Below are positions 7,734 through 61,128 of a stretch of 64,000 nucleotides of DNA, piece by piece. The stretch covers positions 1 to 64,000 of the forward strand of contig SHVE01000004.1 of the NCBI GenBank assembly GCA_009694365.1, read 5' to 3'. The translations under genes were made by a program, and so were the position numbers. Position 1 is the stretch's first letter, and each line of letters starts with the position of its first letter. This DNA is from Thermoleophilia bacterium (GTDB taxonomy: Bacteria; Actinomycetota; Thermoleophilia; Miltoncostaeales; Miltoncostaeaceae). The notes beneath the pieces were generated by a model, which saw only the letters and a list, made by a program, of their open reading frames with translations, was not told the origin of the DNA and did no database searches.

Positions 7734-7941
7734 CCCCACCTAGTCGGCGTATCACCGCATCCGCCCCACCTTCGCATGGGCCGTCGTCGCTTGGTGCTAT
7801 GGTTCGCGTCGGTTTACGGGCCGTCCGGCGCCTCCAAATGAGCGCCCCGCCGACCGCCCACAGACCATCGGTTCGCATCGGCCCCATCCGGGGGCCTGCC
7901 GCGCATGGCATTCCGCCATGGGCCGAGAGGTGCGAGATGAC

Positions 7942-10458
7942 ATGAGTACTCCCACACAGACGACGGACACGCTCACCCCTGCCGAGCGATTGGAGGCTGC
8001 GCTCGCCGACCCGGCGGCGTGGTGGCCCGACGTGGTGCTCCGGGAGCACCAGATCGAGGCCCTCGACGAGCTCGCCGTCCGGCTCCGCGGTGGTGCGTCG
8101 CGCACATGGGTGGACGCCCCCACCGGATCCGGAAAGACCATCACCTTCTGTGCGCTGGCCACGGCTCTCGACGGGTCCGCCGTCATCCTGGTCCCCCGGC
8201 GCAACCTTGCCGACCAGACGGCCGCGGCACTCGCCACCTTCTTTTCCGGCGTACCGTTCCGGGTGGACGGGGTGGGGTCCATCGGCGCGCCCGGCATCAC
8301 GATCTGCACGTATCAGGCCGCGCTTCGCCACCAGGGTGAGGTCGACTGGGAGTCGGTGACCCTGCTGGTGTGCGACGAGGCACACACGACTCTGGGGCAG
8401 CAAACGCGGCGCATGATCGATCGCGCGACCAACGCCACGGTGGTGGGGTTCACCGCCACGCCATCCACCACCACCGGTCATGTGGAACAGGTCTTCGGGC
8501 CGGTAGCCACCACGCTCGATCGCCAGGCCGCGATCGATCGGGGCATCCTCTGTCCGCTCCGCTCGTTACGCGTGGAGCGCGCGGTGGATCTGTCGGATGT
8601 CGCCCGCGTGCGCGGCGACTTCGATCAGGCCAGTCTCGGGCGGGCGATGGACAGGGCCAAATGGCACCGCGCGTGTGCCGACGTCTGGGCCGAGCACTTC
8701 CAACCGCTCGGTCTGGCGGGGGTCGCGTATACGGCCACCGTGGCGCAAGCCCATGCCCTCGCGGACGAGATGCTGGAGCGCGGCGTACGCGCGGCAGCCG
8801 TATCCGGCCAAACCCCGGCCCGGGAACTCACGCGACTGCTCGCCGTCTTCGGGCGGGGGGACATCGACGTGCTGTGCAACGCCGACCTCCTCACCGAGGG
8901 CTGGGACGAGACCCGCGCATCGGTGGTAATGCACCTCGCACCCACCACCAGCGAGCGGGTGTTCGTGCAGCGCCTCGGACGCGTGATGCGCCCGGCCGAG
9001 GGCAAAGAGGCGGTGTCGGTGGAGTTCCTCCCAGCTGGGGACCCCATGGGCGTGCAGACCAGCCACGACCTGTTCGGCATGGGCTGGTACAAGCCGCTCG
9101 GACGGGTGGCCGGACCGCCTGAGGGTGGCGAGGCCGGAAAACTGGCCCGGGCGGCAGCCCTCCTGGCCGAGCAGGACGGCGGGCGCGCGAGCCTCGTCAA
9201 CCCCGGTGCCCCCGCCACGGCGCTGGTCGCCGGGTTTCGGGATGGCGGGTGGCGCGATGCCGATCCCGGTGAGATCCCGACCTCCGTCATGGAGGAGTGG
9301 GTCCAGGCGGCGGCGGCGGACACCGACTGGTCCGAGGTAGCCGACCGGATCACCGCGGGAGTGAGCCCCCTCGGCGCCCACGCCTGGTGGGCACTGTCCG
9401 GCGTCGTGGCGCGCGTGGCCGAGAGTGGCGATGAACAGCCCCTCTGGCGATCCTGGGCCACGGCACTGCTGGTCCAGCCCGATCTACGTCAGGCCCTGCC
9501 CGCCGATGCACCGCGGGCGATCCTCGATCGCCTGCGCATGACGGCCCGCGAACGCATCCGGGCGCTCTGGTTCCACGCCGATCAGGCGAACAAGTGGGAC
9601 AACGTGGCGGCGCTCGAGCAGCAGGGGCGCTCGGCCGAACGCCGTCGCCGCTGGTCGGCGCTCGAGTCCGCATCCGGGTGGGCCCCAGCGTGGGCCTGGG
9701 AGGCGTCACGTGGTCTGGCCGACGCCACCCGCCCCGGTCGTAACCAAGAGATCCACCGCATCGCCAAGTGGGAGTCTGAGCACCTCATCGTGAATGGTGG
9801 CGAGCTCGGCCTGATCGGACTGTGGTTGCGCGCCGTGGGTGCGCCCGCTCCGGACCCCATCGTGCCGCCCGATGGCACCTCGCTTCTCAAGCCCGGCGCG
9901 GCCGCCCGAGTGATCCTCGCCCTCGGCCCCGACGACGTGCCGCTGAAGGGAGAGGACATCCGCGTGGCGAGCCGTGCGGCGGGAACGTGTGGTGGGTGGG
10001 CAGAACTCCGTGGAGCGCTCGACGCCATCGACTGGACCTCGGTGGACGGCCGACGGGCGCTCCGTGCCGCGGTGGGCACGCGACAGGCACGGGCTCTGCA
10101 GAGCCCACGGGCGTGGAACCAACTGCGCCCGAAGGCCCCACGCCTGCCCATGGTCGACGAGATGGGAATCGGCGCGTCGGCGTCTGAGCAGGGTGGATCC
10201 ACCCGTCGTAAACGCCGGCGCCGACGGAAGATGGGCACGTCCGAGGTCGCTACCGCGGCGCCGTCGGATTCGAATGGGGCGACCGGCGCGATCGGTTCTG
10301 CGAACGTCCCGACCGTGCCGGGGGACGATCCCCCCGGCACGGTCGGGACGACGGCAGACGAAACCGCTCCCAAGGGTCGCCGCCGCAGACGCCGTCGGCG
10401 TCCTGCGAGCGCGACGGCCGCCGAGGGCCACCCCCCGACGGCCTCGCACGACGAATGA
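7942..10458 (+). CDS. superfamily 2 DEAH-type helicase, RadD-like
   Basis: 838 residues. Motifs of an SF2 ATPase are in order: REHQIEALDEL (Q-like), TGSGKT at 61-66, CDEAHTT with DEAH at 145-148, GFTATPSTT, and QRLGRVMRP near 350. The layout resembles RadD/XPB-like repair helicases. After about residue 400 comes a long Trp-rich region of unknown fold, then an Arg/Lys-rich tail with two clusters (RRKRRRRRKM and KGRRRRRRRRP), likely for nucleic-acid binding. The ATG at 7942 was preferred over one 8 codons upstream because GAGAGG precedes it. The linker between the basic clusters is encoded by a 20-bp perfect palindrome. No defence-system partner is nearby, so repair is the safer guess. Confidence 0.85.
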   Translation: MSTPTQTTDTLTPAERLEAALADPAAWWPDVVLREHQIEALDELAVRLRGGASRTWVDAPTGSGKTITFCALATALDGSAVILVPRRNLADQTAAALATFFSGVPFRVDGVGSIGAPGITICTYQAALRHQGEVDWESVTLLVCDEAHTTLGQQTRRMIDRATNATVVGFTATPSTTTGHVEQVFGPVATTLDRQAAIDRGILCPLRSLRVERAVDLSDVARVRGDFDQASLGRAMDRAKWHRACADVWAEHFQPLGLAGVAYTATVAQAHALADEMLERGVRAAAVSGQTPARELTRLLAVFGRGDIDVLCNADLLTEGWDETRASVVMHLAPTTSERVFVQRLGRVMRPAEGKEAVSVEFLPAGDPMGVQTSHDLFGMGWYKPLGRVAGPPEGGEAGKLARAAALLAEQDGGRASLVNPGAPATALVAGFRDGGWRDADPGEIPTSVMEEWVQAAAADTDWSEVADRITAGVSPLGAHAWWALSGVVARVAESGDEQPLWRSWATALLVQPDLRQALPADAPRAILDRLRMTARERIRALWFHADQANKWDNVAALEQQGRSAERRRRWSALESASGWAPAWAWEASRGLADATRPGRNQEIHRIAKWESEHLIVNGGELGLIGLWLRAVGAPAPDPIVPPDGTSLLKPGAAARVILALGPDDVPLKGEDIRVASRAAGTCGGWAELRGALDAIDWTSVDGRRALRAAVGTRQARALQSPRAWNQLRPKAPRLPMVDEMGIGASASEQGGSTRRKRRRRRKMGTSEVATAAPSDSNGATGAIGSANVPTVPGDDPPGTVGTTADETAPKGRRRRRRRRPASATAAEGHPPTASHDE
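10305..10350. repeat. 20-bp perfect inverted repeat inside the helicase gene
   Basis: Left arm CGTCCCGACCGTGCCGGGGG (10305-10324), loop ACGATC, right arm an exact reverse complement (10331-10350). It is fully within the reading frame, coding VPTVPGDDPPGTVGT between the two basic clusters. A stem this long and GC-rich would fold strongly in DNA or mRNA. Confidence 0.95.
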
Positions 10459-10682
10459 GCAGCGCCGACTCGGTGGCGGACCGCCGGTGGGACCACGTCC
10501 GCGAGATCGCGGCAGCGATCGATCGCCTTGAGGCCTGTGATCGCCGTGACGGCCTCGACGACGATGGCCGCCTCGCGCTGGCCCGTCTGAGGATCGAGGC
10601 CGAGCGCGCGAGCGCGCGAGCGATGCTGGCCGACGACGTGGCCGATTCTATCGAGTCGGCCCGTCGCGTCGATGGGGAATGA
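10455..10682 (+). CDS. small acidic/basic helical protein, unknown
   Basis: 75 residues starting at an ATG that overlaps the helicase stop (ATGA), implying translational coupling. The sequence is almost wholly charged helix (VREIAAAIDRLEACDRRDG; LARLRIEAERASARAML), perhaps a small coiled coil. No family is recognised; a helicase accessory is a guess from position. A possible terminator follows. Confidence 0.6.
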   Translation: MSSADSVADRRWDHVREIAAAIDRLEACDRRDGLDDDGRLALARLRIEAERASARAMLADDVADSIESARRVDGE

Positions 10683-25739: not shown

Positions 25740-27541
25740 CCCGGAGTCCCGCGGCAGGCGCACGGTGAAGCAGGCCCCGTGACCCCGTTGAGAGGTGACG
25801 ACGATGTCACCGCCGTGGGCGCGGACGATGCCACGCGCGATGGCCAGGCCAAGCCCGGCGCCCTGGCCATCGCCGCGCTCACGCGCAGGGTCGGCCCGGT
25901 AGAAGCGGTTGAACACGCTCGGAATGGAGTCACCGGGAATCCCCTCCCCGGTGTCGGTCACCGACATCAGGGCATCACCACCCCGCACGTGCGCCTGCAC
26001 CGTGACGGTGCCGGCAGCGGGCGTATGGCGCAATGCATTGTCGAGCAGGATGAGGAGCACCTGCTCGATCCGGGTAGGATCACCGTGCATGGGAACGGGG
26101 GAGCCCGCCTCCACCCGCAGCACCACGCCGTCGCGCTCCGCGAGGACCGCCCGTGGCCGCGACGCCGCGCGTACGAGTTCGGCCAGATCCATGGGTTCGC
26201 GGACCAGCGGGAGTTCGCCCGAATCGAGGCGCGCGAGTTGCATCTGCTCGTCCACGAGGCGCTGCAGGCGTTCCGCCTCCCCGGCCATAAGGCCCACGAA
26301 CTCGCGGCGCGCCTCCGGTGGCATCGCGTCGTCCTCCATGAGTTCTAGGAAGCCGCGGATGGCCGTAACCGGCGTCCTGAGCTCGTGCGACACGTTGGCC
26401 ACGAGGTCACGGCGGGTGCGTTCGAGCATGCGCTCCTGGGTCACATCGCGAAGGGTGAGCACCACCGTGCCTGCGGGATGGGGCAGCGGCACCGCTGCCA
26501 CGGCGATGGACACACCGTGCGCGGCGGTGATCTCCGGCCCCACCACGGGCGAAGCGCCCGCACGAGCGCGGGCCACCAGTTCGACGAGGTCGGGGGGGAG
26601 ATCACCCAGGCGGGCGTCGCGTCCCGGCGGAAGTCCCAGCATGCGCAGCGCGGCGTCGTTGGCCACCACCACGGCGTCGGCCTCGGGATCGATCATCACC
26701 ACGCCCTCCGCGAGTCCCGACACCAGTGCGCGAGCGCGGTCACGTTCCCCGGTGACGGTGGCGACGAGTTCGTCCACCCGCTCGGCCATCCGGTTGAGGC
26801 CCCCCGCGAGAGTGGCCACCTCGCGTGGCGATACCTCGGGGGCCCGGGCCGAGAGATCGCCCGCCGACAGGCTGGCAGCGGTGGCGGCGAGGCGACCGAT
26901 GCGCCGGCCGAGGATGCGCGCCATAACAATGCCCGCGATCGTGGCCAGCAGCAACACGACGACAACCGCGAACATCACTCGGGCCTGCAGGGTGCTGATC
27001 TCCGCGGCCGGCTGAACCACCGGAACCGCAACCTCAATGATCCCCACGGCAACATTGGCCTGGGTCACCCGCACCGCGGAATAGACGACGCGGTCGCCGT
27101 CCGCGCGATCGACGACACGTACGCCCACGGGCTCGGCGGACGGCGAGTGACCGGCGAGGTCACCCTCCGGGGTGAGGTCGTCGAGGTCGAACACATCGGT
27201 GATCGACACGGCACCGGCGGAGTGCCGCGTACCGCTGCGATCGCTGAAGCGCGCTACCCCGCGTACCTCGGCAGCGACCCGGCGGGTATAGGCCTCGGCA
27301 TCGGAATCGCTGAGAACGTCGCCGTCGCCGGGCACCTCGGACAGATCGCCGAGGGTGGTGATCGTCTGCGTGGAGGTGCGCTCCACGGCGCTGTTCCTAA
27401 TACTCGCCTCGAGCGTGGGCAGGAGCACGAGAAACATGAGGAGGCTCGCCGCCGCCCCCAGAATGATGAATGATCCGATGAGCCAGGTCTGAAGACCGGT
27501 ACGGCCGCGCTCTCGCCTGCCCCGTCGCTCACCGGATCCGC

Positions 27542-59890: not shown

Positions 59891-61128
59891 TGGCCCGCGT
59901 GCTCTACGTATCGCAGTACTTCGTGAGTGCCGACCAGCCGGGTGGAGTACGCCACTGGCAACACGCCCGCGCTCTGGCACGCGCCGGTCACGACGTGACG
60001 GTGGTCACGTCATACGTGCAACACAAGGAGCGCGTCATCCCCGAGGAGTTCCGGGGGAAGCGCATCGTGCACACCCGGGAAGACGGCCTCGACGTCATAC
60101 GCACCTACTCCACGCCGGGCTACGGACGCGATCTCCGGTCACGCATGGCGAACTACGGGACGTTCGCCATGTGGTCCTTCCTCGCCGAAGCACGCCTACC
60201 ACGACCCGACGTGGTGGTGGCGTCATCCCCCTCGCTGCCCGCCGCCGCCGCGGCCGCCGCACTTGCACAGGCCCGGCGTAGCCGGTTCCTGCTGGAGATC
60301 CGCGATCTCTGGCCCGACTCGGCGATCGCCATGGGGCTCGTCGGCAACCGCGCGATCATCGCCGCTGCTCGGAAGCTCGAGCGGTACTGCTACCGGCGTG
60401 CCGACCACATCGTCGCACTCACGGGGGGCATCCGCGACAGCATCCTTTGCACGGGGATTTCTGCAGATCGGGTGAGCCTGATCACGAACGGAGTGGACCT
60501 CGACGTCGTCCCCGATCCCGACGTGCCCTCCGGGATGGACATCCCGGAGGGCACCTTCGTCGCCATGTACGTGGGGGCCCACGGCACGTACTCATCACTC
60601 GGAACCGTGCTCGAGGCGGCCCACCTCCTGCGCGACGACCCGGGGATTCGCATCGTGTTCGTGGGTGGTGGCGACCAGAAGCCCGCGCTTCTCGCGCAGG
60701 CGGCCGCGGGGGATCTCCCCAACGTGGTGTTCGTGGACCCCGTGCCCAAGCGCCAGGTACCCACCTACCTCGCGGCGGCGGACCTCTGCCTGCTGCCATA
60801 TCAGGACCGCGCGCTGTTCGCCGGGGCACTGCCGAACAAGGTGTTCGACTATTTGGCTGCCGCGCGTCCCATCCTGGCGGCGGCACCTCGTGGGGAGCTC
60901 ACGGACCTCGTGGACCGCACGGGCTGCGGCTGGGTAGTGCCGCCGGAGGACCCGGCGGCGATGGCGGTGGCGATTCGCGGTGCGGCGGACCACCGCGACG
61001 CCGCGCGCGCGCGCGGCGAGGCCGGACGCGCGTACGCCATCGCCGAATACGACCGCGCGGCGTTGGCCGCGCGCTTCGTGGCCATCGTCGACGAACTCGC
61101 GGCGGGTGGCGCAGGTCGACGACGATGA
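59890..61128 (+). CDS. GT4 glycosyltransferase, WbuB/WcaI-like
   Basis: 412 residues. RVLYVSQYFVSADQPGGVRHW and HARALARAGHDVTVVTSYV, PDVVVASSPSLPAAAAAAA, LLEIRDLWPDSAIAMG, and ALPNKVFDYLAAARPILAAA match WbuB/WcaI-type fucosaminyl or related transferases. ATG shares one base with the previous stop (TAATG); the next start overlaps it (ATGA). Confidence 0.9.
   Translation: MARVLYVSQYFVSADQPGGVRHWQHARALARAGHDVTVVTSYVQHKERVIPEEFRGKRIVHTREDGLDVIRTYSTPGYGRDLRSRMANYGTFAMWSFLAEARLPRPDVVVASSPSLPAAAAAAALAQARRSRFLLEIRDLWPDSAIAMGLVGNRAIIAAARKLERYCYRRADHIVALTGGIRDSILCTGISADRVSLITNGVDLDVVPDPDVPSGMDIPEGTFVAMYVGAHGTYSSLGTVLEAAHLLRDDPGIRIVFVGGGDQKPALLAQAAAGDLPNVVFVDPVPKRQVPTYLAAADLCLLPYQDRALFAGALPNKVFDYLAAARPILAAAPRGELTDLVDRTGCGWVVPPEDPAAMAVAIRGAADHRDAARARGEAGRAYAIAEYDRAALAARFVAIVDELAAGGAGRRR

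Follow-up and report, generated by a model that had tools for sequence, protein, structure and literature searches.

In E. coli, template switching at imperfect inverted repeats makes these repeats perfect (PMC7202029), and yeast coding genes have had up to five neighbouring residues rewritten in this way (PMC8604942). A single event can suffice to form a perfect stem (PMC8794818). Short inverted repeats (6-9 bp) are also in excess in prokaryotic coding sequence, which has been ascribed to template switching (Ladoukakis and Eyre-Walker, 2008, according to PMC4060949). We analyzed a palindrome in a helicase gene of a Thermoleophilia bacterium, located in a stretch of 64,000 nucleotides (the window). 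This palindrome was probably left by one recent hairpin-templated (quasipalindrome or template-switch) mutation that was tolerated in a fast-evolving linker.

A perfect palindrome in a helicase gene

The sequence-only reading had placed a 20-bp perfect palindrome with a 6-nt loop at 10305-10350, within a bland linker flanked by two Arg clusters; both observations were confirmed. The arms pair at 20 of 20 positions around the loop ACGATC, in agreement with the near-perfect arms and short spacer expected of a template-switch (quasipalindrome) mutation. The features of the locus are as follows.

7942..10458, + strand: superfamily 2 helicase gene (ResIII/DEAD and Helicase_C, by Pfam), 838 aa, with orthologues across the genus and family
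10199..10222 (bounds approximate), + strand: first cluster of Arg/Lys residues in the C-terminal tail, shared by every congener readable at this position
10297..10301, + strand: outer half-stem TCTGC, pairing with GCAGA at 10354-10358 (arm analysis and fold)
10305..10324, + strand: left arm of the perfect palindrome, CGTCCCGACCGTGCCGGGGG, 20/20 pairing, longest in the 464-kb sample
10325..10330, + strand: loop ACGATC, between both perfect arms
10331..10350, + strand: right arm of the perfect palindrome, CCCCCGGCACGGTCGGGACG, 20/20 pairing, longest in the 464-kb sample
10354..10358, + strand: outer half-stem GCAGA, pairing with TCTGC at 10297-10301 (arm analysis and fold)
10375..10401 (bounds approximate), + strand: second Arg cluster with 8 Arg, in frame past the palindrome and present in congeners
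10455..10682, + strand: small gene of 75 aa downstream of the helicase, its ATG sharing bases with the helicase TGA (ATGA)

The helicase start at 7942 was set by homology, and a longer frame begins at 7918. The protein is RadD/SSL2-like and not assignable to a named family, as every match to NCBIfam was far under the cut-off. Outside the perfect stem a 3x3 mismatch (GAA versus ACG) is followed by the five outer pairs; with these counted in, the arms are 28 nt long at 89% and the length of the palindrome increases from 46 to 62 bp. The RNA stem has a folding energy of -49 kcal/mol and the surrounding region a fold z of -5.8. The palindrome lies in frame within the helicase ORF, encodes residues 788-803 (NVPTVPGDDPPGTVGT) and is located about 105 nt upstream of the overlapping downstream gene. 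The start codon of this gene and the stop codon of the helicase overlap (as ATGA or GTGA) in the window, as they do in 16 of 16 congeners readable at this junction, and the gene is probably translationally coupled to the helicase. Its product, 75-90 aa across the genus, is uncharacterised and had no match in NCBIfam.

The pLDDT of the helicase tail (residues 747-838) is below 50 nearly throughout, and the linker carrying the palindrome is predicted to be disordered. Between the Arg clusters the linker measures 49 aa here and 33-54 aa in congeners; it is rich in Ala, Gly, Pro and Thr and cannot be reliably aligned to congeners. The palindrome residues are atypical of the linker (Val 3/16 versus 1%, Ala 0 versus 30%), as expected for sequence written by copying.

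The frequency of such structures was assessed in a genome sample consisting of the window and 20 further stretches, 464 kb out of the 1.5-Mb genome. Among the perfect short-loop hairpins of this sample the palindrome ranks first in length and is the only one with a perfect arm of at least 20 and a loop of at most 30. Order-2 Markov sequence (three replicates) yielded no arm above 15, and 400 codon-order shuffles of the helicase gene yielded arms of at most 13. The palindrome is thus beyond chance. In the codon register of the arms position 3 meets position 3 and position 1 meets position 2, and the 13 pairs free of third positions are dictated by the amino acids alone. The remaining third-position pairs match in 7 of 7 cases, although codons for identical residues in this species and its congeners differ at about 41% of their third positions, and sequence comparison therefore suggests that the palindrome is likely young.

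The suggestion that selection on protein would not keep such symmetry holds, with one qualification: ordinary protein evolution offers no explanation for it, but the amino acids already set 13 of the pairs. Synonymous shuffles with the amino acids held gave 13-20 pairs and reached 20/20 in 2 of 300 cases, which is what can be said for point substitutions in GC-rich DNA that happened to meet coincidentally symmetric amino acids. Such an origin leaves the symmetry of the residues unexplained and is at odds with the codon-order shuffles, so that it hardly deserves consideration. As the encoded segment is itself symmetric, whatever made the palindrome also wrote the protein residues.

Occurrence in relatives and alternative readings

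The palindrome was present in none of the helicase orthologues checked in congeners, other genera of the family and a second genome collection. Searches that allowed up to three mismatches found the whole hairpin neither in 19 congeners nor in roughly 400 genomes from the class, and the exact hairpin core was absent from IMG/VR. Within its own genome the 17-nt arm core had no further match at fewer than two mismatches. A plasmid search with the palindrome returned only short weak matches, mostly to GC-rich genomes. Every congener readable at this position has the two Arg clusters without the hairpin; the single 9-bp arm in the tail region of congeners is an Arg-codon repeat in one of them. In the 11 alignable congeners 0-11 of the 20 helicase pairs are kept, and pairing maintained by compensatory changes, as in a conserved RNA structure, was not observed among them. 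Absence or imperfection in relatives is also what a template switch predicts. Among the genomes compared, the palindrome therefore appears specific to this species. The orthologue comparison proposed in the sequence-only reading fitted neither of the outcomes foreseen there, as the palindrome is absent and the linker residues are not conserved either, only the flanking Arg clusters being kept. The source habitat may be freshwater or estuarine, judging from the names of the relatives' records, which vary.

The absence in relatives and the lack of a second close copy argue against both a conserved regulatory hairpin and a multi-copy mobile element. A functional hairpin or protein-binding inverted repeat could still have been gained in this species and kept by selection, acting on mRNA stability, ribosome pausing or the coupled downstream gene, or serving as the site of a dimeric regulator. 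The very stable stem, the strongly folding region, the proximity to the start of the probably coupled gene and the intact third positions are in line with such a role. It is nevertheless unlikely, since the hairpin is missing from every orthologue readable there, Rfam gave no match to the palindrome (one sub-threshold match lay elsewhere) and the arm lacks the second close genomic copy that is usual for a regulator site. The protein-binding site suggested earlier is likewise without comparative support.

The palindrome might also stem from a small mobile element, similar to RPE, REP or MITE, that inserted in frame and has one copy left. Such an origin would be in keeping with the in-frame palindromes in protein genes known for Rickettsia palindromic elements (RPE; PMC10969869) and with the dispersed hairpin repeats of the sister species G018. 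We regard it as very unlikely. The genome search for the arm, which might have revealed a mobile element, found a single copy, with none in the congeners, class genomes or IMG/VR; the palindrome is far shorter than an RPE and lacks the motifs of the dispersed hairpins of either genome, and this genome (G000) had no match to a Y1 transposase. The Rickettsia-like element put forward in the sequence-only reading was thus not supported.

The dispersed hairpins of the sister species were found in stretches L102, L103, L109, L118, L119 and L120. They have arms of 24-35 bp with a common CCCGGTGTCAGGCAC, followed by TTAACCG in 5 of 6, and differ in their inner stems. Copies of the core GGTGTCAGGCAC number 19 in 400 kb of G018, compared with zero in 464 kb of this genome. 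These hairpins resemble REP-like or RAYT-associated repeats, and G018 has two Y1 transposase matches. A second dispersed hairpin consists of GGTGACAGTCACC with an inverted copy after about 10 nt (L061, L063, L066, and L102 and L103 of G018); its core was counted 22 times in 400 kb of G018, and the 464-kb sample of this genome had no copy. A hairpin of this genome at L039 19122-19170 has arms GGTGTCAGACA and TGTCTGACACC, and GGTGTCTGACACC and its reverse complement, counted together, occur six times in the 464 kb. The helicase palindrome contains neither the motifs of the G018 dispersed hairpins (GGTGTCAGGCAC, GGTGACTGTCACC) nor that of this genome (GGTGTCTGACACC), and homology to these hairpins was therefore rejected. 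Two parS-like GTTTCACGTGAAAC sites, one of them extended to a 19-bp perfect palindrome, lie beside an rsmG-like gene at L051 12690-12757, likely near the chromosome origin.

The long GC stem could be read as an intrinsic transcription terminator or as a translational truncation device giving two protein forms. In an intrinsic terminator a GC stem is followed by a T-tract; neither a T-tract nor any terminator-like site follows this stem, and together with the downstream gene that starts in the helicase stop this makes termination or truncation unlikely. Orthologues without the hairpin retain the two Arg clusters as well as the overlapping downstream gene. The earlier proposal of an mRNA hairpin that ends or slows translation and yields two protein forms is not supported by these findings, and we consider a device of either kind highly improbable. 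The relatives are, by name, metagenome assemblies, and the palindrome could accordingly have arisen from faulty or chimeric assembly of metagenome data. Such an artefact is scarcely probable, as 46 bp is shorter than the usual assembly k-mers and reads, the reading frame is intact up to and including the conserved second Arg cluster.

Hairpin-templated mutation and other coding hairpins

With a hairpin-templated mutation, the nascent strand would have folded back during replication, probably seeded by short inner G/C pairing, and one arm would have been copied onto the other as its reverse complement before synthesis resumed, in frame, on the normal template. Residues created in this way would have landed in the disordered, length-variable linker between the conserved Arg clusters, a site at which they could be tolerated for that very reason, and no function of a DNA or RNA hairpin would be needed. 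The fold-back event, its seed, the template arm and neutrality are what we infer from the present sequence. The right-arm residues (DPPGTVGT) are closer to linker character than the left-arm residues, which faintly suggests that the left arm would be the copy. The event cannot be reconstructed, as the linkers of congeners, which are about 80% identical in protein, cannot be aligned.

Coding hairpins with arms of at least 12 were counted in the sample against a null in which protein and codon usage were held. We found 13, where 3.1 were expected (30 shuffles, maximum 7), an excess to be taken as roughly fourfold because the gene calls were home-made and at least one hairpin (25837-25873) was counted twice in overlapping calls. 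The sister species showed no excess (5 observed versus 5.3 expected), which means that the process does not operate across the genus as a whole. Further coding hairpins include a 15/15 hairpin with a loop of 2 in a glycosyltransferase gene (window 60523-60554), imperfect in 18 of 18 congeners aligned there, and an 18/18 hairpin with a 25-nt loop in a gene without assigned identity (L048 17569-17629).

Six coding-hairpin sites, including that of the helicase, were compared with congeners, and none was perfectly paired in any of them. Relative to congeners, changes were biased to one arm at the L046 site (8 versus 3) and at the histidine kinase site (2 versus 0), as arm homogenisation would predict. 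Clear one-arm conversion was not seen at three other hairpins (glycosyltransferase 6/7, luciferase-like 2/2, L053 1/3), so that changes confined to one arm were seen at two of the five other coding hairpins; the helicase linkers are not alignable. The excess fits template switching and does not prove it. Loss of hairpin-processing nucleases was not supported as its cause: ExoVII is present, as is an SbcD-like match that is shared with 12 congeners and lies below the curated cut-off throughout the genus. Judging from gene content, no obvious repair loss lies behind the excess. That this lineage has a raised rate of long hairpin-templated mutations rewriting protein linkers, with the helicase palindrome as its longest example, is a speculative extension that we think unlikely to hold. 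If the excess holds genome-wide, the species could help to measure the rate at which template switching writes new protein in wild bacteria.

Comparison with known systems

The helicase palindrome shares with RPE its in-frame position in a coding gene and the tolerant protein part. It does not have the defining RPE features tested: RPE are about 150 bp long with a conserved encoded peptide and are dispersed in multiple genomic copies (PMC10969869), whereas the helicase palindrome is single and measures 46 bp (62 bp with the outer pairs). REP/RAYT repeats are extragenic, present in many copies and associated with a Y1 transposase, whereas the helicase palindrome is intragenic and single; PF01797 had 0 matches in this genome and was present in 11 of the 20 genomes searched.

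The coding palindromes in mitochondria of Nematomorpha (PMC6649704) are also perfect inverted repeats translated through in protein genes, and a template-switch origin has been proposed for them. Those palindromes are many, much longer and situated in conserved protein parts, some at the same places across species, whereas the helicase palindrome is a single one in a variable linker of one species. The excess described by Ladoukakis and Eyre-Walker (2008), in the account given in PMC4060949, is similar in that inverted repeats in coding sequence are ascribed to template switching, and differs in size, with 6-9 bp there and 12-20 bp here, in one species.

The helicase palindrome also resembles the quasipalindrome template-switch mutations in E. 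coli thyA and lacZ reporters and in S. cerevisiae genes (PMC7202029, PMC8604942, PMC8794818). There, too, one arm is turned into a perfect reverse complement of its partner across a short loop, and coding sequence can be struck such that several neighbouring residues are altered together. Those mutations were seen against their parent, whereas the helicase case is known without a parent sequence and its stem is long (20 bp). The kind of event is thus already known, and the helicase palindrome, which is real, species-specific and probably young, is most likely a tolerated replication slip of this kind; it provides a clean natural case of a perfect palindrome fixed in bacterial coding sequence other than as a multi-copy mobile element.
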